Source: an uncultured Hyphomicrobiales bacterium
GTDB lineage: Bacteria; Pseudomonadota; Alphaproteobacteria; Rhizobiales; Devosiaceae
Assembly: GCA_903842455.1 (NCBI GenBank)
Contig: CAIMLX010000094.1
Location: forward strand, 62,001-126,000
DNA length: 64,000 nucleotides
Direction of reading: 5' to 3'
Each line of letters begins with the position of its first letter. The first letter of the stretch is position 1. The notes beneath the pieces were generated by a model. The model made no database searches, was not told the DNA's origin, and saw only the letters and a program-made list of their open reading frames with translations. Below are positions 103-12,523 of the stretch, in pieces. The translations under genes were made by a program, and so were the position numbers.

Positions 103-492
103 GTGCATAAGTCGCTTTCACCAAGCTCCATTCATCCGCCATTCGCGCCTTACAGCCCCGGTATCGAGGTCAGTTCACGCTCGCGTTTCGTCTTCGTTTC
201 CGGCCAGTTGGGCATCGACAAGGACGGCGTTGTTCCGCCCGATGCCGCCGGTCAGGCCCGCGTCGTCTTCGACAATATCAGGGCGATTCTCGGCGAGGCC
301 GGAATGGGACTCAAGGATATCGTGAAGCTCAACGCCTACGTCACCGGCCGCCAGCACATGCGCGGCTACATGGACGTGCGCAACGCGCTGTTCGCGGAGC
401 CGTATCCGGCCTCCACCCTGATGATCGTCGGTGGCTTCACCCGCGAAGAATTCGTCGTCGAGATCGAAGCGATCGCCGCTTCGCCCGGCTGA
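103..492 (+). CDS. RidA/YjgF family protein
   Basis: A 129-residue protein of the RidA/YjgF/UK114 fold, whose best known members hydrolyse reactive enamine/imine intermediates in the cytoplasm. The family core is visible: FVSGQLG near residue 32, the central helix with DNIRAILGEAG, and the C-terminal VEIEAIA strand. The start is GTG with only a weak purine stretch upstream. At the position of the substrate-binding arginine of E. coli RidA (motif PARS) this protein reads PAST, so it belongs to a subfamily without the classical deaminase arginine. It is the first gene of the ergothioneine-type cluster and lies 17 bases before the creatininase-like gene, so it is probably cotranscribed. Its substrate is unknown. 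Confidence 0.9.
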   Translation: MHKSLSPSSIHPPFAPYSPGIEVSSRSRFVFVSGQLGIDKDGVVPPDAAGQARVVFDNIRAILGEAGMGLKDIVKLNAYVTGRQHMRGYMDVRNALFAEPYPASTLMIVGGFTREEFVVEIEAIAASPG

Positions 493-509
493 AACTGCAG
501 AGACCTGAC

Positions 510-1304
510 ATGACCTACCGCAAGATCTGGTGGAACGACTTTTCCGCCTTCGACTTCCACGGCCTCGATCCGAACAGGACGATCGCGGTGTTCCCGACCG
601 CTGCCGTCGAGCAGCACGGCCCGCATCTTCCTCTGGGTACGGATACGATCATCAACCAGGGTCACCTCGACCTGCTGGTCGAGCGGGTGCCGAAGGACCT
701 CGACATCCGTATCCTGCCGGTGCAGGCGATCGGCAAATCCAACGAGCACATCTGGCAGACCGGCACGCTGAGCCACACCGCCACCAACCTCATCGATGCA
801 TGGACGCAGATCGGGCTCGAGATCGCCCGGGCGGGGATTAAGAAGGTGGTGTTTGTCAATTCGCACGGTGGCAACGTCTCGATCCTCGACATCGTGGCGC
901 GCGAGCTGCGGGTGAAGGCCGGCATGCTGGCAGTGAAGACCGGCTGGAGCCAGTATTGGCCCAAGGATATCTACTCCGACATCGAGAACCGCCACGGCAT
1001 CCACGGCGGCGACAGCGAGACCTCGGTGGTGATGCACCTGCGCCCCGAACTGGTGAACCTCGACAAGCTGCAGGATTATCCTTCCGTCGCGGCGCGCGAC
1101 GAGCAGGCCTACAAGTACATGCGGCCGACGGGGCCGACGAGCTATGCTTGGATCGCCAGCGATATCCACCCGCTCGGCGCGGCGGGCCAGGCGCATCTGG
1201 GCACGGCCGACAAGGGCCGGGTCACGGTGGAGACTGCAGTCGACGCGTTCATCGAACTGTTGCGCGAGGTCGAGCGCTATCCGTTGCCGGGGGCCGAGCG
1301 CTAG
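510..1304 (+). CDS. creatininase family amidohydrolase
   Basis: A 264-residue member of the creatininase/creatinine amidohydrolase family, metal-dependent cytoplasmic enzymes that open cyclic amides or cleave related C-N bonds. The metal-site segments are visible: VEQHGPHLPLGTD near residue 33, NSHGGN near residue 117 and GIHGGDSETS near residue 163. The length matches the family. It sits between the ridA-like gene and the lyase gene on the same strand with short gaps. True creatininase is one possibility, but the neighbours are enzymes of thiohydantoin/hydantoin chemistry, so a cyclic intermediate or analogue of ergothioneine breakdown is an equally good guess. This step is not part of the published five-step pathway. 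Confidence 0.88.
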   Translation: MTYRKIWWNDFSAFDFHGLDPNRTIAVFPTAAVEQHGPHLPLGTDTIINQGHLDLLVERVPKDLDIRILPVQAIGKSNEHIWQTGTLSHTATNLIDAWTQIGLEIARAGIKKVVFVNSHGGNVSILDIVARELRVKAGMLAVKTGWSQYWPKDIYSDIENRHGIHGGDSETSVVMHLRPELVNLDKLQDYPSVAARDEQAYKYMRPTGPTSYAWIASDIHPLGAAGQAHLGTADKGRVTVETAVDAFIELLREVERYPLPGAER

Positions 1305-1345
1305 CTCCCATTGCATGGTGCGGCGCAGCCCGGTAATTGCGGGGC

Positions 1346-2899
1346 ATGCATCAGCACCCCCCGACGCTCGAGCTTATTCTTCTCAACGGAAAGCCGATGA
1401 GTTTTCGATCGCTCGCCCGTATCGGCCAGCGAGCCGCCACCCTGGTGCCCGATGACGAGGCGATGCGGCGGGTGGACGCGGCGCGGAAGGTCGTGGACGA
1501 CAAGATCGCCCGGGGGGAGCCGGTCTACGGCACCACCACCGGCGTCGGTGCAATGAAGGATGTCGAGTGGTCGCCCGAGGAGATGGAGACCTTCAACATG
1601 GGTCTTGTCCGCGCCCATCACTTTGGCACCGGCGCGCCGTTTCCGAACTCGATCGTGCGCAACGCCATGGCCATTCGCGCCAACACCGCGCTGACCGGCC
1701 GTGTGGGTTGCTCGCGCGAACTGGTCGAGGCGTATCTCAACCTGCTGTCGAAGGACGTGGTGCCCGTCGTCCGGCGCACCGGCTCGATCGGCACAGCCGA
1801 TATCGGTCTGATGGGCCAGATCGGCGCGGTGCTGACCGGCGTGGGCGAGGCGGTGTACCAGAACCGCCGCATGTCGGCAGAGGCAGCGCTGTCCGAAGCC
1901 GGGCTGAAGCCGGTGCGGATGCAGGCGCGCGACAGCCTCGCCTCGATCTCGGTGAACGCCGTGGGCTTTGCCGCGGCGGCCGAAGCGACCCGCTCCGCCG
2001 CCTCGGCGCTGCGCATGCTGCTCGCGACCGGCCTCACCACGGCCGGAGCGCTCGGCGCTTCGCGCGACCCCTGGAAGGCCGTGGCGCATGTCGGCACCGA
2101 GCGCGAGGCCGAGATCGGCTCGTGGCTCTACCGCAACGCCATGGGCTGGGACTGGCCCAATGCGACACATATCCAGGATCCGCTGAGCCTCAGGATGATG
2201 CCGCAGGTGTTCGGCGCGACATTCGGCACCCTGCTGGTGGCGGGCCAGACCATTCTCGCCGCTACCGGGCGCACCGACGACAACCCGGTCGTGGTCGACA
2301 ACCAGGTGCTGACCTCGGGTGGTTCGCTGCCGCTCGACGTGACGATCTACCTGCAGACGGCGCAGCTCGCGATGGCGCATGCCGCCCGCAACTCGTTCAA
2401 CCGCTGCGTGCTGCTGGCCAACGGCGCGCGCCGCGACCTGCCGATCAACCTCGTGCCGCGCGGCGCCATCGCCACCGGCTTCGGCCCGATCATCAAGCTC
2501 GCCGGCGAACTTTTTGCCCGGGCGCTAAGCATGTCTGTGCCGGTCTCCGCCCAGTCACTGGTGGTCGCTGCCGGCCTCGAGGACGAGGCGGCGTTCCTGC
2601 CGCTTGTCGTCGAGCGGTTCGAACGCCAGGTGCGCGCGCTGCGCCGCCTCGCGGCGCTCGAAGGGTTGCTGGCGGCGCAGGCGATGGACATTCACGGCGA
2701 CCGTCCGTCGGGCGTTCCGCATCTTATCTACGAAAAAGTGCGCGGCCACGCCGAGTTCTACCGGGTCGATCGGCCGCTCTCGTCGGAGGTCGAGGCGATC
2801 GAAAATGACCTGGGGTCGGAACAGACCATGGCTGAATTGATTTCCCACTCGCCCCTGCCTGCGCTGGACGAGTTTTTCGCGCTTGGCCCGGTCACTTAG
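1346..2899 (+). CDS. ergothionase-like (histidine ammonia-lyase superfamily, no MIO triad)
   Basis: A 517-residue protein aligning end to end with histidine ammonia-lyase. The mobile-loop tyrosine is kept (VYGTTTGVG, Tyr61). The MIO-forming Ala-Ser-Gly is replaced by Thr-Ala-Asp (residues 150-152, context GSIGTADIG), and the catalytic tyrosine of QDPYSLR is Leu (QDPLSLR, Leu280). A true HutH cannot work this way. Ergothionase is a HAL relative that eliminates trimethylamine from ergothioneine by acid/base catalysis, and the downstream genes encode every later step. The assignment therefore rests on homology plus context. I chose ATG 1346; a TTG nine bases upstream is possible. A related trimethylammonium-histidine lyase is the main alternative. 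Confidence 0.75.
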   Translation: MHQHPPTLELILLNGKPMSFRSLARIGQRAATLVPDDEAMRRVDAARKVVDDKIARGEPVYGTTTGVGAMKDVEWSPEEMETFNMGLVRAHHFGTGAPFPNSIVRNAMAIRANTALTGRVGCSRELVEAYLNLLSKDVVPVVRRTGSIGTADIGLMGQIGAVLTGVGEAVYQNRRMSAEAALSEAGLKPVRMQARDSLASISVNAVGFAAAAEATRSAASALRMLLATGLTTAGALGASRDPWKAVAHVGTEREAEIGSWLYRNAMGWDWPNATHIQDPLSLRMMPQVFGATFGTLLVAGQTILAATGRTDDNPVVVDNQVLTSGGSLPLDVTIYLQTAQLAMAHAARNSFNRCVLLANGARRDLPINLVPRGAIATGFGPIIKLAGELFARALSMSVPVSAQSLVVAAGLEDEAAFLPLVVERFERQVRALRRLAALEGLLAAQAMDIHGDRPSGVPHLIYEKVRGHAEFYRVDRPLSSEVEAIENDLGSEQTMAELISHSPLPALDEFFALGPVT

Positions 2900-2998
2900 C
2901 ACGCCGGGGAATAGATTTCCGTCGGCGTTCGTATACTTTAGCCGACCAATTCCACACTGAGGGTCAAACTGCCGGTGCGGGACAACAAGGAGACCATC

Positions 2999-3907
2999 AT
3001 GCTTTCGAAGAAACTGCTCGGCGCCGCTGCGGTGCTGGCCTTCACGGTGACCGCGGCCAATGCCCAGGTCGTCGTCTCCTCCAAGATCGATACCGAGGGC
3101 GGGCTGCTCGGCAACATCATCAGCCAGGTGCTGCAGGCCAACGGCATTGCCGTGACCGAGAAGATCCAGCTCGGTGGCACCCCGGTGGTGCGCGAGGCGA
3201 TCACCGCCGGCCAGATCGACATCTACCCCGAATATACCGGCAACGCCGCGTTCTTCTTCAACAAGGCCGACGATCCGCTCTGGAACGACGCCGCCAAGGC
3301 CTACGAAGAGGCCAAGAAGCTCGACTACGACGCAAACAAGATCGTCTGGCTCGCGCCCGCTCCGGCCAACAACACCTGGGCCGTCGCCGTCCGCAAGGAC
3401 ATCGCCGACGCCAATTCGCTGACGACCTTCACCGAGCTCGGCGCCTACATCGCCGGCGGTGGCGAGATCAAGCTGGCGGCCTCGGCCGAGTTCGTCTCCT
3501 CGCCGGCCGCCCTGCCGAAGTTCCAGGAGGTCTATGGGTTCACCCTGAAGCCCGAGCAGCTGGTGACGCTCTCTGGTGGTGATACTGCGGCGACCATCGC
3601 TGCGGCCGCCCAGCAGACCAACGGCGTCAACGCCGCCATGGTCTACGGTACCGACGGCGGTATTGCTCCCTCGGGCCTCGTCGTCGTCGCCGACGACAAG
3701 GGCGTGCAGCCGGTCTACGAGCCCGCCCCGATCATCCGCGAGGCAGTGCTGCAGGCCAACCCGCAGATCGAAGAACTGCTAAAGCCCGTATTCGCCAAGC
3801 TCGACCTCGTCACCCTGCAGGACCTGAACGGCCGCATCCAGGTCGGCGGTGAAGCCGCCAAGGACGTCGCCATCGACTGGCTGACGACCAACGCCTTCCT
3901 GAAGTAA
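2999..3907 (+). CDS. betaine-type ABC transporter substrate-binding protein (OsmF/OpuC-like)
   Basis: A 302-residue periplasmic binding protein of the OsmF/YehZ-OpuCC family, which binds trimethylammonium compounds. A Sec signal peptide ending near ANA-Q (about residue 22) precedes the mature domain. Typical segments include LGGTPVVREAITAGQIDIYPEYTG near residue 60 and the C-terminal LNGRIQVGG. ATG 2999 is preceded by AAGGAG at 2986-2991, so I prefer it to a start 24 bases upstream. The permease and ATPase genes follow. Given the flanking ergothioneine-degradation enzymes, the likely ligand is ergothioneine or another histidine betaine; the OpuC family is known to contain ergothioneine importers (EgtUV). 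Glycine betaine or choline remain alternatives. Confidence 0.88.
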   Translation: MLSKKLLGAAAVLAFTVTAANAQVVVSSKIDTEGGLLGNIISQVLQANGIAVTEKIQLGGTPVVREAITAGQIDIYPEYTGNAAFFFNKADDPLWNDAAKAYEEAKKLDYDANKIVWLAPAPANNTWAVAVRKDIADANSLTTFTELGAYIAGGGEIKLAASAEFVSSPAALPKFQEVYGFTLKPEQLVTLSGGDTAATIAAAAQQTNGVNAAMVYGTDGGIAPSGLVVVADDKGVQPVYEPAPIIREAVLQANPQIEELLKPVFAKLDLVTLQDLNGRIQVGGEAAKDVAIDWLTTNAFLK

Positions 3908-4003
3908 TCCGCCCTTTCATGGCATCCATTTTGGGGGTGGGCAGTTACTCTGCCCGCCCCTAATGTTTTAAAATGCTTGAGCACAACCTCCCATCACCCA
4001 CGA

Positions 4004-4104
4004 TGTCATCCCGGCGACGGCCGGGATCCAGCCTGAGCGGCTGGCTGCTCGGTCGCAGCGGTGGAGAGCCCTCAGGATGGGCCCCGGCCTTCGCCGGGGT
4101 GACA
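4004..4104. repeat. intergenic palindromic repeat, family A copy 1
   Basis: A long imperfect palindrome begins TGTCATCCCGGCG and ends CGCCGGGGTGACA, with inner arms CCGGGATCC and GGGCCCCGG. It lies between the binding-protein and permease genes of the importer. Copies occur at 6998-7087 and, more divergent, at 55218-55297. It resembles a REP-type element; folding of the transcript could attenuate read-through or protect the upstream mRNA. Confidence 0.75.
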
Positions 4105-4130
4105 GTGGCCGTCGAGACGGAGTGCCTCCA

Positions 4131-5312
4131 ATGAGCACTGTCGCGGCGACCGGCTCCCCCCGCATTGCCGTCGACAAGCTCGGGGTGCTCATTGCCCTGA
4201 TCGCGGCTGTGGCGGCGTTGATGCCGTTCGCGGCTTTCCGGGCCAATCGGATCGTCGTAGGCATCAGCAAGGGAATATTCGAGGCGCTGCCGTTATGGGA
4301 GGCGGTGCTCGTTGCCCTGGCGCTAGTCGCGGCTATCCTCGTCGCGTTGCTGAGGACGCCGAGGCTCTGGCGCCTCTTCGCCAGCCTCGCGATGCTGGCC
4401 GTGCTGTTCGTGGCGATCGGCCATTCGGCAAGTTTCCTCACGCCCGAGGGGGACAGGCTGGCCCGTGTCTCGCCGGGGGCGGGTTTCTGGCTGGCTGTGT
4501 TCGCGTTCGCTCTCCTCGCCGCCGACAGCTTTACCCGACTGAAGCTGGCGCCCTGGCTGCGCATCGTCACGCTGCTGCTGGTGGCGGGGGCGATTGCGCT
4601 GCTGCTCTGGTCCGGCGCCTGGAACGACTTGTCCATCCTTCGCGAATACGCCAATCGCGCCGAGGCGTTCTGGCGCGAGGGACAGACGCACATCGCCCTG
4701 GCGCTCGGCTCGCTGGCCGCGGCAACGGTGGTCGGAATCCCGCTCGGTGTCGTCTGCCACCGCGTCGATGGCCTGCGCGCGGTGGTGCTGAACGTGTTGA
4801 ACGCGCTGCAGACAATCCCCTCCATTGCCCTGTTCGGCCTGCTGATTGCGCCACTCGCCTGGGTGGCGGCCAATGTGCCCGGCGCCTCTGCCATCGGCAT
4901 ATCAGGCATTGGCGCGGCGCCGGCGATGGTGGCGCTGTTCGCCTACTCACTGCTGCCGGTGGTCGCCAATACGGTGGTCGGGCTCGAAGGCGTGCCTCCG
5001 GCCGCCACCGACGCGGCGCGCGGCATGGGCATGACCAACTGGCAGCGGCTGGCCAAGGTCGAGTTTCCGCTGGCCTTTCCGGTGATCCTGACCGGCATCC
5101 GCATCGTGCTGGTGCAGAATATCGGCCTTGCCACCATTGCCGCGCTGATCGGCGGCGGCGGCTTCGGCGTGTTCGTGTTCCAGGGGGTGGGCCAGACCGC
5201 CATGGATCTGGTGCTGCTCGGCGCCGTTCCCACCGTGGCGCTGGCCTTCGCCGCCGCCGTCATCCTCGATGCCATTGTCGAGATGGTCTCCACCGGAGCT
5301 CGCCCAGCATGA
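4131..5312 (+). CDS. ABC transporter permease (YehY/OpuCB-like)
   Basis: A 393-residue inner-membrane permease of the betaine/osmoprotectant importer family. The N-terminal ~190 residues carry several extra hydrophobic segments, as in YehY. The C-terminal BPD_transp_1 domain contains the EAA loop region (DAARGMGMTNWQRLAKVEFP) that docks onto the ATPase. I chose ATG 4131; upstream in-frame codons run into the palindromic repeat. The stop overlaps the ATPase start (ATGA), so the two are translationally coupled. It should form a heterodimeric channel with the permease at 6244-6984 for the same ligand as the binding protein. Confidence 0.88.
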   Translation: MSTVAATGSPRIAVDKLGVLIALIAAVAALMPFAAFRANRIVVGISKGIFEALPLWEAVLVALALVAAILVALLRTPRLWRLFASLAMLAVLFVAIGHSASFLTPEGDRLARVSPGAGFWLAVFAFALLAADSFTRLKLAPWLRIVTLLLVAGAIALLLWSGAWNDLSILREYANRAEAFWREGQTHIALALGSLAAATVVGIPLGVVCHRVDGLRAVVLNVLNALQTIPSIALFGLLIAPLAWVAANVPGASAIGISGIGAAPAMVALFAYSLLPVVANTVVGLEGVPPAATDAARGMGMTNWQRLAKVEFPLAFPVILTGIRIVLVQNIGLATIAALIGGGGFGVFVFQGVGQTAMDLVLLGAVPTVALAFAAAVILDAIVEMVSTGARPA

Positions 5313-6247
5313 TCGAGATCGATGCTCTCACCAAGGACTACCTCGACCTTACCGTGGTGGACCACGTGTCGATGCGGATCGACGACGGCGACATTGCCGT
5401 CATTGTCGGCACCTCGGGCTCCGGCAAGACCACCCTGCTGCGCATGATCAACCGGCTGATCGAGCCCACTTCGGGGTCGGTGAAGATCGACGGCAAGGAC
5501 ACACGGTCTGTCCCGGCGCACCTGCTGCGGCGCGAAATCGGCTACGCCATCCAAGGCCACGGCCTCTTTCCGCACCGCACCGTGGGGCAGAACATCGCCA
5601 CCGTGCCGGTGCTTATGGGCTGGGAAAAGCCGCGCATCGCCGCCCGCGTCGAAGAACTGCTCGAGCTGTTCCAGCTGCCCGCCGACCAGTTCCGCGATCG
5701 CCTGCCGTCCGAGCTGTCGGGCGGACAGCAGCAGCGTGTCGGCGTGGCCCGCGCGCTGGCCGCCGAGCCGAAGCTGCTGCTCATGGACGAGCCGTTCGGC
5801 GCGCTCGATCCGATCATCCGCGCCAAGGCGCAGGCCGACCTCGTCGGTATCCAGAAGCGGTTCGGCACCACCATCGTGCTGGTGACCCACGACATGGAGG
5901 AGGCGATCCACCTCGGCACGAGGATCGCCGTGATGGACCAGGGCAAGCTGCTGCAATACGCGACACCGGCCGAAATCGTGGTGAAACCCGCGACCGACTT
6001 CGTTGGCGAACTGCTGGGTTCGGGCGATCGCGCCTTCCGATTGCTCGGTCTTCGGCGCATCGGCGACTTTGTCGAGCCGGGCGAGGCCTCAGGGGCGCCG
6101 GTTTCGGCCGAGCAGACGCTCCGCGATGGCCTCGAGGAGGCGCTGTGGTCCGGCCGCGCGGTTCTGCCGGTGGTGGACGGCGCCGGCAAGCCGGTCGGCC
6201 GACTGACACTCGCCACGCTGCAGCGGCTGGGGGCGCGGCCGCAATGA
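5309..6247 (+). CDS. ABC transporter ATP-binding protein (YehX/OpuCA-like)
   Basis: A 312-residue ATPase of the glycine-betaine/proline class. Visible are Walker A GTSGSGKTT near residue 36, the Q-loop region IQGHGLFPHRT, the signature LSGGQQQRV near residue 134, Walker B LLLMDEPFGALD, and the switch histidine in VTHDMEEA. After about residue 235 there is a C-terminal extension with one CBS-like half (AVLPVVDGAGKPVGRLT), typical of OpuA/ProV-type ATPases. It overlaps both neighbours by four bases (ATGA at 5309 and at 6244), so the two permeases and the ATPase form one coupled unit that energises uptake in region 1. Confidence 0.9.
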   Translation: MIEIDALTKDYLDLTVVDHVSMRIDDGDIAVIVGTSGSGKTTLLRMINRLIEPTSGSVKIDGKDTRSVPAHLLRREIGYAIQGHGLFPHRTVGQNIATVPVLMGWEKPRIAARVEELLELFQLPADQFRDRLPSELSGGQQQRVGVARALAAEPKLLLMDEPFGALDPIIRAKAQADLVGIQKRFGTTIVLVTHDMEEAIHLGTRIAVMDQGKLLQYATPAEIVVKPATDFVGELLGSGDRAFRLLGLRRIGDFVEPGEASGAPVSAEQTLRDGLEEALWSGRAVLPVVDGAGKPVGRLTLATLQRLGARPQ

Positions 6248-6984
6248 AGATCGGGCTGATCGTCAGGCTCGTCGTTCTGGTGCTGCTGGTGGCCTTCGTG
6301 GTGTCGCCCGCGAGCTTCGAGTGGGCCTTCCTGCCGCTCACCAAGAACAACCAGCCCGCGATCTACACCCAGAACACGCTGCTCAGCCTGACCCTGAGCC
6401 ACCTGACCTTCGTCGCGATCGCGACCGTCGCCTCTACCCTTGTGGCCGTAGGGCTGGCGATCGTGGTGACGAGGCCGTTCGGTGCTGAGTTCCTGCCGCT
6501 GAGCCGCTCGCTCGCCAATATCGGGCAAACCTTCCCGCCGGTGGCTGTGCTGGCGCTCTGCGTGCCGATCCTAGGGTTCGGGGCCGGGCCGACGCTGGTG
6601 GCACTGTTTCTCTACGGCCTGCTGCCGATTTTCGAGAACGCCCTCACCGGGCTGACGACGCTGCCGCCATCTGTGAACGAGGCGGCGCGCGGAGTCGGCA
6701 TGACCGGCCGGCAGCGGCTGTTGGGGGTGGAACTCCCGCTGGCGACCCCGGTGATCCTCGCCGGCATCCGGTTGTCCGTGGTGATTTCGGTGGCGACAGC
6801 CACGATCGGCTCGACCGTTGCTGCGAGCACGCTGGGCGAGGTGATCATCGCCGGGCTGCTGAGCAACAATGTCGCCTTCGTGCTGCAGGGCGGCCTGGTG
6901 GTGGGCGTCATGGCCGTGCTGATCTACGATGCGCTCTCGGCGCTGGAGCGGGTGCTGATGGCAAGGACGGGGCAGAGGCGATAA
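6244..6984 (+). CDS. ABC transporter permease (YehW/OpuCD-like)
   Basis: A 246-residue inner-membrane permease with about six hydrophobic segments and a BPD_transp_1 EAA loop (NEAARGVGMTGRQRLLGVELP near residue 140). It starts inside the stop of the ATPase gene (ATGA), so it is translationally coupled. It is shorter than its partner at 4131-5312, matching the YehW/YehY pairing. With the binding protein and ATPase it completes a four-gene importer of the betaine class placed in the middle of the catabolic cluster. A palindromic repeat follows directly and separates it from the hydantoinase gene. Confidence 0.88.
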   Translation: MKIGLIVRLVVLVLLVAFVVSPASFEWAFLPLTKNNQPAIYTQNTLLSLTLSHLTFVAIATVASTLVAVGLAIVVTRPFGAEFLPLSRSLANIGQTFPPVAVLALCVPILGFGAGPTLVALFLYGLLPIFENALTGLTTLPPSVNEAARGVGMTGRQRLLGVELPLATPVILAGIRLSVVISVATATIGSTVAASTLGEVIIAGLLSNNVAFVLQGGLVVGVMAVLIYDALSALERVLMARTGQRR

Positions 6985-6997
6985 CCTTTGAGTAGGG

Positions 6998-7087
6998 TGT
7001 CATCCCGGCGCATCCCGGGATCCAGCCTGAGGCGTCGCGGCGATATGCGGGCCGATCAGGATGGGCCCCGGCCTTCGCCGGGGTGAC
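6998..7087. repeat. intergenic palindromic repeat, family A copy 2
   Basis: A second copy of the element at 4004-4104: TGTCATCCCGGCG at the left, GGATGGGCCCCGGCCTTCG at the right, with a different loop. It fills the gap between the last permease gene and the hydantoinase gene of the same operon. Confidence 0.75.
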
Positions 7088-7115
7088 CTCGAGTTTGTGG
7101 AGGCGTTGACGGCGC

Positions 7116-8459
7116 ATGTCTGATTTCGATCTCGTCCTCTCCGGCACCGTGGTCTTGCCTTCGGCCGTCATTGAGGGTGGCTATGTCGCGGTGCGGGATG
7201 GCAAGGTGGTGCATGTGGGCGAGGGCGGGCCGCCGCATGGGCACGAGCAGCACGATTTCGGCAAGGGCCTGATCCTGCCTGGGGCCATCGATGCGCAGGT
7301 GCATTCGCTGAGCCAGAAGGACCAGGAGGATTTCATCTGGTCGACCCGCTCGGCGGCGGCGGGTGGCGTCACTACCATCGTCGACATGCCCTATGACGAG
7401 GGCAATGTCGTCAACTCGGCCGAGGCGGTGCGGCAGAAAGTGGCGCATGCCAGCCCGCAGGCGCGGGTGGACTTTGCGCTTTATGGCACGATCGATCCGG
7501 CCGAGGGCGCGAGCCGGATTGCCGAGCAGGCGGAGGCGGGGGTCGCGGCGTTCAAGTTCTCGACCTTCGGCACCCACCCGACGCGGTTTCCACGCATTTC
7601 GCCGCCGCTGCTGGCGGAGGCTTTCGCCGAGGTGGCAAAGACCGGGCTGACCGCCGGTGTGCACAATGAGGACGACGAGTTCGTGCGCGCCGCGATGGAC
7701 AAGGTGAAGGCCGCAGGCATCACCGACTGGCGGGCGCATGCGATGAGCAGGCCGCCGCTGGCCGAGTTGCTGGCGACGCTGCAGGTCTACGAGACCGGCG
7801 TCGCCACCGGGGCGGCGGCGCATATCGTCCACTGCTCGCTGAGCCGCGGCTACGATATCGCGGCGGACTATCGGGCGCGCGGCTTCCACGCCTCGATCGA
7901 GTGCTGCATCCACTATCTCGTGCTCGACGAGGAGAACGATGTGAAGCGGTTGGGCGGCAAGGCCAAGATCAACCCGCCGATCCGCCCGCGCGCCGAGGTG
8001 GAGGCGCTGTGGCGTCAGGTGGCGGCGGGCAATGTGACGCTGGTCTCGACCGATCATGTGAGCTGGTCGGAGGACCGCAAGACTAACCCCGACATGCTGG
8101 CCAACGCCTCGGGCGTGCCGGGGCTGGAGGCGATGGTGCCGCTGTTCGTCAAGGGGGCGCTGGAGCGGGGTGTGCCCTTGACCTGGGCGGCAAAGCTGCT
8201 GGCGGCGAACCCGGCGAAGCATTTCCGCCTTGCGCAGAAGGGCGCGCTCGAAGCCGGGAAGGATGCCGACATCACCGTGCTGGTCGACCGGCCGGTGGTC
8301 TACGACGCGGCGCGCTCGGGACACAACGTGGTCGGCTGGTCGCCGTATAACGGCATCACGCTGCCCTGGACGGTGGCGGGGACGTGGTTGCGCGGCAAAC
8401 AAGTGTTCGATGGGACCGATGTGGCCGAGCCCGGGGCAGGGCGCTGGGTGCGGCCGTGA
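7116..8459 (+). CDS. dihydropyrimidinase/hydantoinase-type amidohydrolase
   Basis: A 447-residue metal-dependent cyclic amidohydrolase related to dihydropyrimidinase, hydantoinase and allantoinase. In the proposed pathway it opens hydantoin-5-propionate to N-carbamoyl-glutamate. Visible are the metal-binding strand GAIDAQVH (residues 57-63), the lysine segment AFKFST for the bridging carbamylated lysine, VHNEDD, HIVHCSLSRG and the aspartate in STDHVSWS. The first histidine of the usual HxH pair is glutamine (Gln61), which may alter the metal site or mark a subfamily. Its stop overlaps the GTG of the M20 hydrolase (GTGA), as expected for consecutive steps. Confidence 0.85.
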   Translation: MSDFDLVLSGTVVLPSAVIEGGYVAVRDGKVVHVGEGGPPHGHEQHDFGKGLILPGAIDAQVHSLSQKDQEDFIWSTRSAAAGGVTTIVDMPYDEGNVVNSAEAVRQKVAHASPQARVDFALYGTIDPAEGASRIAEQAEAGVAAFKFSTFGTHPTRFPRISPPLLAEAFAEVAKTGLTAGVHNEDDEFVRAAMDKVKAAGITDWRAHAMSRPPLAELLATLQVYETGVATGAAAHIVHCSLSRGYDIAADYRARGFHASIECCIHYLVLDEENDVKRLGGKAKINPPIRPRAEVEALWRQVAAGNVTLVSTDHVSWSEDRKTNPDMLANASGVPGLEAMVPLFVKGALERGVPLTWAAKLLAANPAKHFRLAQKGALEAGKDADITVLVDRPVVYDAARSGHNVVGWSPYNGITLPWTVAGTWLRGKQVFDGTDVAEPGAGRWVRP

Positions 8460-9694
8460 CCCATAACCTGCCGACCAGCGAGGCCCGGATCGCCGAGGAC
8501 ATCGCGGCGCTGGCCGAGATCACCGAGCCGGGGCGGCCGTACACGCGCCGCGCCTTCACCCCGATGTTCTTGCGCGGGCGGGAGTGGCTGGTGCGGCGGT
8601 TCGAGGCGGCGGGGCTCGAGACGCGGATCGATGCGTCTGGCAACCTGATCGGGCGGCGGCGTGGCACCGTGGGCGGCCGGACCATCATGCTCGGCTCGCA
8701 TTCAGACACCGTGCCGGATGGTGGGCGGTTCGACGGGATTGCCGGGGTGTCGGCGGCGCTGGAGGTGGCGCGGGCGCTGCAGGACCAGCGGATCGAGCTG
8801 AAGCACGATCTGGAGATCGTCGACTTCCTGGCCGAGGAGGTGTCGATCTTCGGCGTCTCCTGCATCGGCAGCCGGGGGATGGCCGGGGTGCGGCCGGCGG
8901 AGTGGCTGGACCGCAAGGTCGATACGCTGAGCCTGCGACAGGGCATCGCCGAGGTTGGCGGCAATCCGCAGCTGCTGGAGAAGCGCGAGGACATCGCAGC
9001 GTTCCTCGAACTGCATATCGAGCAGGGGCCGGTGCTGGAGGACGGGCATCTCGACATTGGCGTAGTGACGGCGATTGCCGGGATCACGCGGATCGAGATC
9101 GTTGTCAACGGCCGGGCCGACCATGCCGGGACAACCCCGATGGGGTCGCGGCAGGATGCGCTGGTGGGGGCCGCCTGGCTGGTGCTGGGTATCCAGCGGC
9201 TGGCGACGGCCCGCGCCGCCGGACCGACGCATTTTGCCGCGACGGTAGGCGAGTTCTCGATCGAGCCGGGGGCGGCCAATGTCGTGCCGGCGCGGGCGCG
9301 GCTGCTGATCGATGCGCGGGCCGAGGACCGGGCGGTGATGCTGGATTTCGCCGGGGCGCTCGAAGCGCTCGTGGCGCAGGTGGCGGCCGACACGGGGCTG
9401 CGCATCGACATGCCGGTTACCATTTCCGACAATTTGCCCACGCCTTGCGACCCGCTCGTGCTTGATACGCTCGATGTGGCAGCCGTGGCCGTGGGGGCGC
9501 GCCAACGCCGGATGGCGTCCGGCGCCGGACACGACACGGCGTGGATGGCGCGGGTGACCAAGGCGGCGATGATCTTCATTCCCTGCCTCGGCGGCCGCAG
9601 CCATACGCCGGACGAATTTGCCGAGATGGCAGACGTGGCACTCGGTGCCGCAGTGCTGCTGGAAGCGGTCAAGCGTTTGGACAAGGACTTGTAG
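8456..9694 (+). CDS. M20 family carbamoyl-amino acid/allantoate amidohydrolase
   Basis: A 412-residue zinc hydrolase of the beta-ureidopropionase/allantoate amidohydrolase/N-carbamoyl-L-amino acid hydrolase group. Metal ligands are visible in GSHSDTVPDGGRFDG, LAEEVSIFG, HIEQGPVLE and the C-terminal GGRSHTPDE. The dimerisation domain carries GRADHAGTTPM. The GTG start at 8456 overlaps the upstream stop; longer in-frame starts would lie inside the hydantoinase gene. In this context the substrate is probably N-carbamoyl-L-glutamate, giving glutamate, CO2 and ammonia, the last step of ergothioneine breakdown. Allantoate hydrolysis is less likely because no allantoin genes are nearby. Confidence 0.87.
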   Translation: MTHNLPTSEARIAEDIAALAEITEPGRPYTRRAFTPMFLRGREWLVRRFEAAGLETRIDASGNLIGRRRGTVGGRTIMLGSHSDTVPDGGRFDGIAGVSAALEVARALQDQRIELKHDLEIVDFLAEEVSIFGVSCIGSRGMAGVRPAEWLDRKVDTLSLRQGIAEVGGNPQLLEKREDIAAFLELHIEQGPVLEDGHLDIGVVTAIAGITRIEIVVNGRADHAGTTPMGSRQDALVGAAWLVLGIQRLATARAAGPTHFAATVGEFSIEPGAANVVPARARLLIDARAEDRAVMLDFAGALEALVAQVAADTGLRIDMPVTISDNLPTPCDPLVLDTLDVAAVAVGARQRRMASGAGHDTAWMARVTKAAMIFIPCLGGRSHTPDEFAEMADVALGAAVLLEAVKRLDKDL

Positions 9695-9695
9695 C

Positions 9696-10826
9696 ATGGG
9701 TCGTATTCTCACCGAGAAGGATGTGGAGCCGGCGGTGAAAGGCGGCTCCGTCTATGCCGCAGGCGGTGGTGGCTGGGCCGACCATGGTCGCATGCTCGGC
9801 TACGCAGCCGTGTCGATCGGCAAGCCTGAACTGGTCGATATCGAGGAACTGGAACCGCGCGACTGGGTGGCGACCTCCGCTGCCATCGGCGCCCCGGCTT
9901 CGACCACGGCGTGGGAAATGCAGGGCCGTGATTATGTCAAAGCCGTCGAACTGCTGCAGGAGGCGCTGGGTGAGCCGCTCGCCGGGCTGATGATCGGGCA
10001 GAATGGCAAGAGCTCGACGCTGAACGCCTGGTTGCCGGGTGCCATCCTCGGCACCAAGGTGGTCGACGCTGTGGGCGATATCCGCGCCCATCCGACCGGC
10101 GACATGGGCTCGATCGGCATGGCCTCGTCGCCCGACCAGTCGATCCAGACGGCGGTGGGCGGCAACCGCAGCGAGAACCGCTACATCGAGCTCGTGACCC
10201 GCGGCGCGACCGCGAAGATTTCGCCGATCCTGCGCACGGCGTCGGACATGTCGGGCGGCTTCATCGCCTCGTGCCGCAATCCGGTGCGGGCGAAGTATGT
10301 CAGGCGGAACGCGGCCCTGGGTGGGATTTCGCTGGCGCTGGAACTGGGCGAGGCCATCATCAAGGCCGAGGCCAAGGGCGGCTCGGCGGTCATCGACGCC
10401 ATAGTCAAGACCACCGGCGGCTCGATCCTCGCCAAGGGGACGGTGACGCAGAAGGACCTCGTCTACACCAAGGAAGCCTTCGATGTCGGCCGTTTCGTGC
10501 TGAACGAGGGCGACAAGGCGATCACCATCCACACCATGAACGAGTACATGGCGGTGGACGATGCCGGCGGCACGCGCCTCGCGACGTTCCCCGACGTGAT
10601 CACCACGCTCGACGCCTCGGGCACGCCGCTGTCGGCGGGGCAACTGCGGGTAGGGATGTTCGTTTTCATCCTCCACGTCAGCAAGAAGATCATCCCGCTC
10701 TCGACCTCGGTGATCGAGCCGGCGGTGTTCCCGCCGGTTGAAAAGGCGCTGGGGATCGACCTTGCGACCTACGCGCTCGATGGCATCAAGCCGCGCAAGA
10801 AGGGCGGCGTGAAGGGCTGGGAGTGA
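9696..10826 (+). CDS. DUF917 family thiohydantoin desulfurase
   Basis: A 376-residue DUF917 protein. The family includes S-methyl-thiohydantoin desulfurase, and the ergothioneine pathway uses a new enzyme type that desulfurises a thiohydantoin. Visible family features are the N-terminal AAGGGGWADHG loop (about residues 18-28) and a glycine-rich C-terminal domain with ATFPDVITTLD. The start is ATG one base after the M20 stop. The proposed reaction removes sulfide from 5-oxo-2-thioxo-imidazolidine propionate to give hydantoin propionate, linking the lyase/hydratase half to the hydrolase half. Many databases label DUF917 proteins as hydantoinase subunits; the pathway context favours desulfurase. 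Confidence 0.8.
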   Translation: MGRILTEKDVEPAVKGGSVYAAGGGGWADHGRMLGYAAVSIGKPELVDIEELEPRDWVATSAAIGAPASTTAWEMQGRDYVKAVELLQEALGEPLAGLMIGQNGKSSTLNAWLPGAILGTKVVDAVGDIRAHPTGDMGSIGMASSPDQSIQTAVGGNRSENRYIELVTRGATAKISPILRTASDMSGGFIASCRNPVRAKYVRRNAALGGISLALELGEAIIKAEAKGGSAVIDAIVKTTGGSILAKGTVTQKDLVYTKEAFDVGRFVLNEGDKAITIHTMNEYMAVDDAGGTRLATFPDVITTLDASGTPLSAGQLRVGMFVFILHVSKKIIPLSTSVIEPAVFPPVEKALGIDLATYALDGIKPRKKGGVKGWE

Positions 10827-10855
10827 TCGCATCGGTGCGCTAGAACCATCGCATC

Positions 10856-12523
10856 ATGCCCAAACCCAATCCTCGTCATCCGAATTTTCCCATTCCGTCA
10901 GGCCCGGTGCTGCGCGCCAAGGGGTGGCGGCAGGAGGCGCTTTTGCGCCTGCTCGAGAACGTGCTGAGCGTCGGGGAGGACCCCGATAACCTCGTGGTAT
11001 ATGCGGCACTGGGCAAGGCGGCGCGGAATTGGGCGGCGCATCGGCAGATCGTTCAGACGCTGACCACGATGGAGGAGGATCAGACGCTGATCATCCAGTC
11101 GGGCAAGCCGATCGGGCTGCTGCAGACGCATGTGAACGCGCCGCTCGTCATCATGGCCAACTGCAACATCGTTGGGCAGTGGGCCAGGGCCGAGGTGTTT
11201 TACGAGCTGGAAAAGCAGGGGCTGATCGCCTGGGGCGGGCTCACGGCGGGCGCCTGGCAGTATATCGGCTCGCAGGGGGTGATCCAGGGCACCTACGAGA
11301 TCTTCATGCGCATCGCCGAGAAGCGCTTCGGCGGCTCGCTGGCCGGACGGTTCATCCTCACCGCCGGGATGGGCGGCATGGGCGGGGCGCAGCCGCTGGC
11401 CGGGCGGATGGCGGGGGCGGCGATCCTAGATGTCGACGTCGATCCGGCGCGGGCCGAGCGGCGGAAGGCCATCGGCTATCTCGAGGAGATTGCGCCCGAC
11501 CTCGATACGGCGCTGGCGATGATCGAGGCGGCGGTGAAGGAGAAGCGCGCGACGTCGGTCGGGCTCGTCGCCAATGCGGCTGACGTGTACCCGGAGATTT
11601 TGCGGCGCAGCATCATTCCCGACATCGTCACCGACCAGACCAGCGCGCATGACCTCGTTTATGGATACGTGCCGCGTGGCATGTCCCTTGAGCAGGTGAA
11701 GCGGCTGCGGGTGGACGGGCAGGGGCAGTTGATGGCGGCGAGCCGCGCCTCGATCGCCGAGCATGTGCGGGCGATGCTGGGTTTTCAGGCGGCGGGCGCC
11801 GAGGTGTTCGACAACGGCAACCTGATCCGCACGCAGGCCAAGCAGGCCGGGGTGGAGAACGCCTTCGACATTCCGATCTTCACCGAGGCCTACCTGCGGC
11901 CGCTGTTCGCGCGGGCCATCGGGCCGTTCCGCTGGATGGCGCTGTCGGGCGAGCCGGCGGACATTTCGCGGATCGACGACCTGGTGCTGGAGATGTTCCC
12001 GGACAACAAGATCGTCACCAACTGGATCACGCTTGCGCGCCACCACATCCCGTTCGAGGGTCTGCCGGCGCGCATTGCCTGGCTGGGGCATGGCGAGCGG
12101 ACGGCTCTGGCGCTGCGGGTGAACGAACTGGTGCGCTCGGGCGAACTCCAGGGGCCGGTCGCGTTCTCGCGCGACCACCTCGATGCCGGGGCGATGGCAC
12201 ACCCCAACATCATGACCGAGAACATGAAGGACGGCTCGGACGCCATCGCCGACTGGCCGCTGCTCGATGCCATGCTGCTCACCGCCTCGATGGCCGACCT
12301 CGTGGTGATCCACTCGGGCGGCGGCGGTTACGCCGGATACATGACCTCGGCCGGTGTCACTCTGGTGGCGGACGGCACGTCGGCGGCGGATGTGCGGCTT
12401 CGGATGGCGCTGACCAATGACACGGCGCTGGGCGTGATGCGCTACGCCGATGCCGGGTACGAGGACGCGAAGGACGAGGCCCAGAAGAAGGGCCTCGCCT
12501 GGTTCGATCTCAGCGCAGGCTAG
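10856..12523 (+). CDS. thiourocanate hydratase-like (urocanase family)
   Basis: A 555-residue NAD-dependent hydratase colinear with urocanase (HutU). The C-terminal signature region is present but altered: urocanases read ARICWLG, this protein reads ARIAWLG (Ala408), so the conserved active-site cysteine is absent. The histidine-rich glycine loop reads HSGGGGYAGY instead of the urocanase form. RDHLDAG and GVMRYADAGYE are kept. Thiourocanate hydratase is a close urocanase relative with features that separate it from HutU, and the lyase at 1346 would supply thiourocanate. The gene follows the DUF917 gene by 29 bases. Its TAG shares CTAG with the convergent yejA stop. Confidence 0.8.
   Translation: MPKPNPRHPNFPIPSGPVLRAKGWRQEALLRLLENVLSVGEDPDNLVVYAALGKAARNWAAHRQIVQTLTTMEEDQTLIIQSGKPIGLLQTHVNAPLVIMANCNIVGQWARAEVFYELEKQGLIAWGGLTAGAWQYIGSQGVIQGTYEIFMRIAEKRFGGSLAGRFILTAGMGGMGGAQPLAGRMAGAAILDVDVDPARAERRKAIGYLEEIAPDLDTALAMIEAAVKEKRATSVGLVANAADVYPEILRRSIIPDIVTDQTSAHDLVYGYVPRGMSLEQVKRLRVDGQGQLMAASRASIAEHVRAMLGFQAAGAEVFDNGNLIRTQAKQAGVENAFDIPIFTEAYLRPLFARAIGPFRWMALSGEPADISRIDDLVLEMFPDNKIVTNWITLARHHIPFEGLPARIAWLGHGERTALALRVNELVRSGELQGPVAFSRDHLDAGAMAHPNIMTENMKDGSDAIADWPLLDAMLLTASMADLVVIHSGGGGYAGYMTSAGVTLVADGTSAADVRLRMALTNDTALGVMRYADAGYEDAKDEAQKKGLAWFDLSAG

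Follow-up and report, generated by a model that had tools for sequence, protein, structure and literature searches.

Near the start of a 64,000-nucleotide stretch of DNA (the window) from the 4.56-Mb genome of an uncultured Hyphomicrobiales bacterium of the Devosiaceae lies a block of nine genes that very probably encodes the import of ergothioneine and its breakdown to trimethylamine, sulfide, and glutamate. The genes, their protein families, their active-site signatures, and a synteny conserved across genomes are directly visible in this block, which sits on contig C94. A preliminary description of the same DNA had proposed an ergothioneine-type catabolic cluster at positions 103 to 12523. 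All eleven co-oriented genes there are present as open reading frames (ORFs), and the families assigned to them agree with both Pfam (scanned for ten of the eleven proteins, with the hydratase left out) and NCBIfam, although the first two genes do not hold up as members of the cluster. The catabolic reading itself is supported by four enzymes that exceed curated cutoffs, by the signature of the lyase, by phylogenetic trees, and by the presence of separate HutH and HutU proteins in the genome. The core consists of nine genes in the same direction (1337-12523), with intergenic gaps of -4 to 223 bp, in the order lyase, substrate-binding protein (SBP), permease, ATPase, permease, ErtD, ErtE, desulfurase, and hydratase (Table 1).

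We propose that an OsmF-type ATP-binding cassette (ABC) importer would take up ergothioneine, that a lyase lacking the 4-methylideneimidazole-5-one (MIO) cofactor would eliminate trimethylamine from it to give thiourocanate, that a urocanase-family enzyme would hydrate thiourocanate to thiohydantoin propionate, and that an enzyme of the S-Me-THD family would remove the sulfur as sulfide, leaving hydantoin-5-propionate. ErtD would then open the ring to yield N-carbamoyl-L-glutamate, which ErtE would convert to glutamate, ammonia, and CO2. All substrates and the order of the steps are inferred, on the basis of the published route and of what the curated families are named for. The genome gave no match to EgtD, the methyltransferase of ergothioneine synthesis, and the ergothioneine would therefore be external; 14 control genomes also gave none over the cutoff, leaving this search without a positive control. 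PMC13405746 supports the first step, catalyzed by the lyase, and the precedents in Burkholderia, Treponema, and Agrobacterium.

The first gene of the block most likely encodes an ergothionase-like, MIO-less trimethylamine lyase. Its product is a member of the HAL/PAL family (PF00221, 295.3 bits) that passes no NCBIfam cutoff, there being no curated family that covers it, and it misses the HutH models widely (223.1 bits against a cutoff of 539.15 and 245.1 against 524). The closest sequence in the PDB is the Treponema denticola ergothionase 6s7j (187 bits), followed by a HutH (148 bits), and a Foldseek search with the predicted structure (mean predicted local distance difference test score, pLDDT, of 83) returned the 6s7j chains at ranks 1 to 3 (template-modeling scores of 0.84/0.88 at rank 1), with HutH close behind. 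Because the low-confidence stretches of this model (residues 66-75, 149-153, and 405-418) include active-site loops, it is uninformative on the pocket. In the alignment, the MIO triad of the lyase is replaced, with GSIGTAD (Thr-Ala-Asp for Ala-Ser-Gly) standing against GSVGASGD in the genome's own HutH. Residues Tyr64, Lys74, Lys387, and Glu415 align with Tyr53, Lys63, Lys383, and Glu411 of the 6s7j chain, which we take to be the catalytic set, four residues being reportedly essential in ergothionase, and this set is invariant in all 24 rows of a lyase alignment composed of the window and 23 sequences hand-picked from 80 loci. The genome's own HutH keeps the Ala-Ser-Gly triad and has different residues in both lysine columns. 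According to PMC13405746, ergothionase works without the MIO cofactor. An unrooted tree separated 11 ergothionase-like rows from 7 HutH rows with a split support of 100/99; true HutH rows were used for this tree, with L070 included as one of them and the long-branched L072 and redundant rows left out.

The Ala-Ser-Gly triad is also absent from two HutH-like proteins, in loci L170 and L171. On Rhizobium plasmids, a gene annotated as HutH reads GSIGAAD (L170 5989-8496, L172 5977-8484, L173 5989-8497, and L174 5989-8496); these four lyases keep GFATVQK, which holds the Lys383 column, and VED, lose the Lys63 column, and have the Glu411 column verified by alignment in L170. They adjoin genes for an SBP of the quaternary-amine type (an annotation given in three of the four loci), a coenzyme A (CoA)-transferase, a short-chain dehydrogenase/reductase (SDR), and MaoC, and they may be trimethylamine lyases for another aromatic betaine.

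The remaining four of the five enzymes exceed NCBIfam equivalog cutoffs that are named for the ergothioneine route. Since the hydratase exceeds the less stringent cutoff of the HutU model TIGR01228 as well (695.3 bits, cutoff 375), a tree was needed for this enzyme, and in it 19 thiourocanate hydratase rows separate from 7 HutU rows at 100/100, with the window hydratase outside HutU. The preliminary description had named a grouping of the lyase and hydratase with true HutH and HutU in trees as grounds for refuting it; the trees did not refute it, and they place both enzymes apart from those rows at full support. The desulfurase, presented at first as a new enzyme type within DUF917, is not new, since Pfam (as S-Me-THD) and NCBIfam (as thiohydantoin desulfurase) already name the family. 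The genome encodes four further S-Me-THD (DUF917) paralogs, all far under the desulfurase cutoff (best 115 bits), which are arranged as two pairs on contigs C45 (28353-30427) and C131 (22855-24911). ErtD falls below the cutoff of the second ErtD model, NF058539 (383.4 bits, cutoff 650). Within residues 57-65 it carries Gln-x-His at the position where dihydropyrimidinase-type enzymes have a metal-binding His-x-His; Gln-x-His is present in 83 of 84 aligned rows, and the exception is a paralogous dihydropyrimidinase in L081. A literature search limited to openly licensed papers found no dedicated paper on the thiourocanate, desulfurase, and ErtD side of the route.

The arrangement of the block recurs well beyond this genome. 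The hydratase exceeds its cutoff in 10 of 41 genomes, the present one included, and of the nine others seven carry a contiguous nine-gene block while two are cut by contig ends (L028 and L032). The seven relatives share the nine-gene order and include another genus of the family (G024). Across a sample of the class, the desulfurase exceeds its cutoff in 5 of 385 genomes (again counting this one). G080 and G302, which represent two more families of this class, have the full nine-gene order at 37 to 78% identity, G055 has only the lyase, desulfurase, and hydratase (within 20 kb), and G126 has a MIO-bearing lyase beside a desulfurase/hydratase pair. A collection holding one genome per species contained relatives of the lyase, which need not all be ergothionases, in 269 stretches. 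We examined the best 80 of these 269, and the 68 loci longer than 21 kb form the basis of the locus counts, with identity thresholds of our own setting and ORFs taken from stop to stop. The desulfurase is present in 61 of the 68, the hydratase and ErtE in 60 each, ErtD in 59, and all five enzymes in 58; all four importer genes occur in 24, the nine genes in any order in 21, and the strict nine-gene order in 19. With this order recurring in 19 loci and all five enzymes in 58, the nine-gene arrangement is not due to chance. The Rhizobium loci among the 80 showed no importer genes in the stretches examined.

Partial and altered versions of the locus were also encountered. In L070 (7562-12606), a lyase with an intact Ala-Ser-Gly triad that groups with HutH lies beside a thiohydantoin desulfurase and a thiourocanate hydratase, a combination that is possibly a route from 2-thiohistidine. 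Blocks of ErtD, ErtE, desulfurase, and hydratase with no lyase within 17 to 21 kb occur in Paracoccus aminophilus (L079 7203-12805), Thalassospira marina (L080 7351-12809), and Neorhizobium (L084 7347-12761), the first two with a tripartite ATP-independent periplasmic (TRAP) transporter nearby, and such blocks could scavenge thiourocanate made by others.

Several observations weigh against ergothioneine breakdown as the function of the block. The window lyase shares only 27 to 30% identity with the lyases of T. denticola and of the Burkholderia type, the alphaproteobacterial lyases form a separate, deep, and long branch of an unrooted tree, and a midpoint root places the T. denticola/Burkholderia lyase pair on the HutH side; we know of no assayed member of the alphaproteobacterial lyase clade. 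In seven of the 68 loci the lyase stands without any of the other four enzymes within ∼10 kb, and a generic Zn-hydrolase model gives ErtE a better score (629.2 bits, cutoff 486) than its own model does (576.9). On the side of uptake, the SBP differs from EgtU, the importer protein of Firmicutes, by the changes G244 to D, T274 to G, F293 to Y, T296 to N, Y337 to A, Y341 to W, R379 to S, and D381 to A, of which the last two adjoin an alignment gap.

Other substrates for the same set of enzymes fare poorly. Degradation of S-methyl-ergothioneine uses the same protein families, and its models do match the hydratase (NF058531, 745.9 bits) and desulfurase (NF058532, 282.1 bits), yet both proteins fall under the S-methyl cutoffs (880 and 450) and above those of the thione models (930 and 440), which leaves S-methyl-ergothioneine a very improbable substrate. 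A distant hydratase/desulfurase pair in the class (L074, which lay outside the S-methyl model scan) has only 51% and 35% identity, and because of this a second branch of the two enzymes can be separated from that of the window. The cluster might also act on ergothioneine sulfonate, with sulfite leaving at the hydration step, a route reportedly published for Agrobacterium radiobacter; such a route should need no thiohydantoin desulfurase, yet one is carried by 61 of the 68 loci and the window copy passes its cutoff, and we give the sulfonate equally little credence. Both branches were set aside on the NCBIfam scores. That the block is a diverged histidine utilization (hut) operon might be suggested by the loose HutU cutoff that the hydratase exceeds, but true HutH and HutU are encoded separately on contig C102 (702.5 and 956.7 bits, over the hut cutoffs), and the HutH scores of the lyase, its missing triad, and the trees that keep the window enzymes apart ruled this identity out, reducing its probability to almost nothing.

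The ligand of the importer can be considered separately. The SBP passes the OsmF equivalog model NF049931 (493.2 bits over 400), and a search of the genome with it at E ≤ 0.001 found no second OsmF-type SBP. It matches the EgtU structure 7txl with 95.5 bits and belongs to the same SBP superfamily. We mapped 15 EgtU sites named in PMC9732360 onto 48 rows of OsmF type, a set with some identical sequences in it. Ergothioneine clusters, the one in the window among them, contributed 44 of the rows, and the other four were S. meliloti, 5teu, 4nd9, and E. coli OsmF. The window SBP keeps the equivalents of K242, I243, T275, N339, E375, Y419, and Y443. Gly244 and Phe293 are given as invariant in EgtU (PMC9732360); the window SBP has Asp at 244 and Tyr at 293, which does not fit the EgtU type. 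All cluster rows differ from EgtU at sites 244, 274, 293, 296, 337, 341, 379, and 381. They vary among themselves only at sites 274 and 381, a range that also covers S. meliloti, 5teu, and 4nd9. Further divergence is seen in E. coli OsmF, with Thr274 and with Arg379 and Asp381 as in EgtU. The cluster SBPs do not form one clade in the SBP tree, where those of Salinarimonas group with a stand-alone Paracoccus SBP (98/92) and a separate group (98/96) unites the SBPs of S. meliloti, S. sojae, 5teu, and 4nd9. Eight rows of this tree were labeled free: five plasmid rows with their neighbors checked, E. coli OsmF, and, presumptively, 5teu and 4nd9. The five plasmid OsmF operons (L083 and L166-L169) stand alone with the same four-gene layout, lacking all five enzymes within 6 kb. 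The importer genes of Ochrobactrum L075 adjoin the lyase in the opposite direction, so the linkage of importer and lyase exists in more than one arrangement.

The description of the importer as suited to a histidine betaine therefore gains support from gene position but not from the binding-site residues compared at the 15 sites: because the pocket resembles other OsmF proteins and not EgtU, it is synteny that points to ergothioneine as the substrate. A general osmoprotectant importer, for glycine betaine or choline, that happens to sit in the operon is the less likely but still serious alternative, given that NCBIfam names the SBP OsmF, that of the 15 EgtU sites only one (Gly/Ala) distinguishes it from 5teu, 4nd9, and the S. 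meliloti OsmF that stands alone, and that the SBPs from clusters fail to form a single clade. Coincidence is harder to reconcile with the presence of all four importer genes within the block in 24 of 68 loci, with their linkage in the reversed arrangement as well, and with the genome having yielded no other OsmF-type SBP. Either these OsmF proteins would generally take ergothioneine or a broad betaine importer would have been recruited by position. A more far-reaching and rather doubtful suggestion is that alphaproteobacterial OsmF importers annotated for glycine betaine are truly ergothioneine importers with a non-EgtU pocket and that the alphaproteobacterial lyases are independently MIO-less with the same catalytic residues.

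An ergothioneine utilization (Ert) route is reportedly known from Burkholderia sp. HME13, and the likeness to it consists of the hydratase, desulfurase, ErtD, and ErtE models that are matched here, together with the lyase. Our comparison was made with Burkholderia arboris (L078); this locus has homologs of all five enzymes, with ErtD 43%, ErtE 45%, and the lyase 30% identical to those of the window. The B. arboris lyase frame starts with a stretch that by eye resembles a signal peptide, whereas no such leader was seen in the window, and, again by eye, B. arboris has a major facilitator superfamily (MFS)-type frame beside the lyase and a LysR-type frame between two halves of the locus, whereas the window has a built-in ABC importer. 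T. denticola ergothionase 6s7j shares with the window lyase the fold, the missing MIO triad, and the Tyr/Lys/Lys/Glu set, but it is 27% identical and lies on a separate branch. The EgtU importer of Firmicutes (PMC9732360) has an SBP of the same superfamily; in a Firmicutes locus (L082) the EgtU-type SBP is fused to the permease, unlike the separate SBP gene of the window. The window importer passes the model for OsmF of the YehZYXW-type osmoprotectant importer and differs from it by its place inside a catabolic operon.

The pathway is already known, and the block is a well-preserved instance of it with importer genes attached. It adds a recurring, syntenic example of the probable breakdown of ergothioneine by bacteria of soil and roots, with Devosia, Rhizobium, Martelella, Salinarimonas, and others among the 80 loci, and it bears on the question of which organisms beyond the gut consume this antioxidant of fungi. 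It also singles out, from proteins currently annotated for glycine betaine, a candidate importer of ergothioneine. PMC13405746 counts ergothionase in only a few genera; with a single genome sampled per species, the scan here gave 269 stretches with lyase relatives. The parts that merit attention are the true ligand of the importer and the deep split between the alphaproteobacterial and the T. denticola/Burkholderia-type lyases.

Table 1. Genes of the block and its two neighbors, with positions in the window, predicted products, and supporting matches
Predicted product	Position	Strand	Basis or remark
RidA	103-492	+	neighbor gene, outside the module
Creatininase family	510-1304	+	neighbor gene, outside the module
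MIO-less lyase, ergothionase-like	1337-2899	+	PF00221; called from a TTG start, with a possible ATG start at 1346
OsmF-type SBP	2975-3907	+	NF049931, 493.2 bits (cutoff 400)
Importer permease 1	4131-5312	+	PF00528; synteny
Importer ATPase	5309-6247	+	PF00005; best NCBIfam match ProV-type, 272.8 bits (under cutoff 326.6)
Importer permease 2	6244-6984	+	PF00528; synteny
ErtD, hydantoin-5-propionate amidohydrolase	7116-8459	+	NF058538, 766.8 bits (cutoff 600)
ErtE, N-carbamoyl-L-glutamate amidohydrolase	8456-9694	+	NF058540, 576.9 bits (cutoff 520)
Thiohydantoin desulfurase (former DUF917, now S-Me-THD)	9696-10826	+	NF058529, 584.3 bits (cutoff 440); PF06032, PF20906
Thiourocanate hydratase	10856-12523	+	NF058530, 1025.8 bits (cutoff 930)

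RidA and the creatininase-family protein (together 103-1304) were considered as parts of the pathway and dropped as neighbors. They were excluded on three grounds. In G001 the pair is divergent and has its place at the other end of the block, beside the neighboring ABC/deaminase operon and away from the lyase (L033 and L039). Next to the blocks of G024, G080, and G302 neither gene was seen (∼1.1 kb upstream of the lyase was covered in G080 and 1.6 kb in G302). Finally, the two genes are rare, being present in 3 of the 68 full-length loci and 6 of the 80 overall, all six Devosia; in six Devosia relatives the pair lies near the block. The two genes probably belong with a divergent operon directly upstream of the window (L005 5773-11960, minus strand), which encodes an ABC importer made up of an ATPase, a permease, and an SBP that has no NCBIfam match and looks NMT1-like by eye, together with a cytosine-deaminase-family protein (551.2 bits over the NCBIfam cutoff of 403), an NAD(P)H oxidoreductase, and an FAD oxidase. 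No regulator turned up in the ORF lists, beyond which no search was made. An identical 28-base palindromic unit lies in each of the two widest intergenic gaps of the block (4076-4103 and 7060-7087). Even when up to 3 mismatches are allowed, the window has no further copy of this unit (0 expected), which belongs to a longer repeat.

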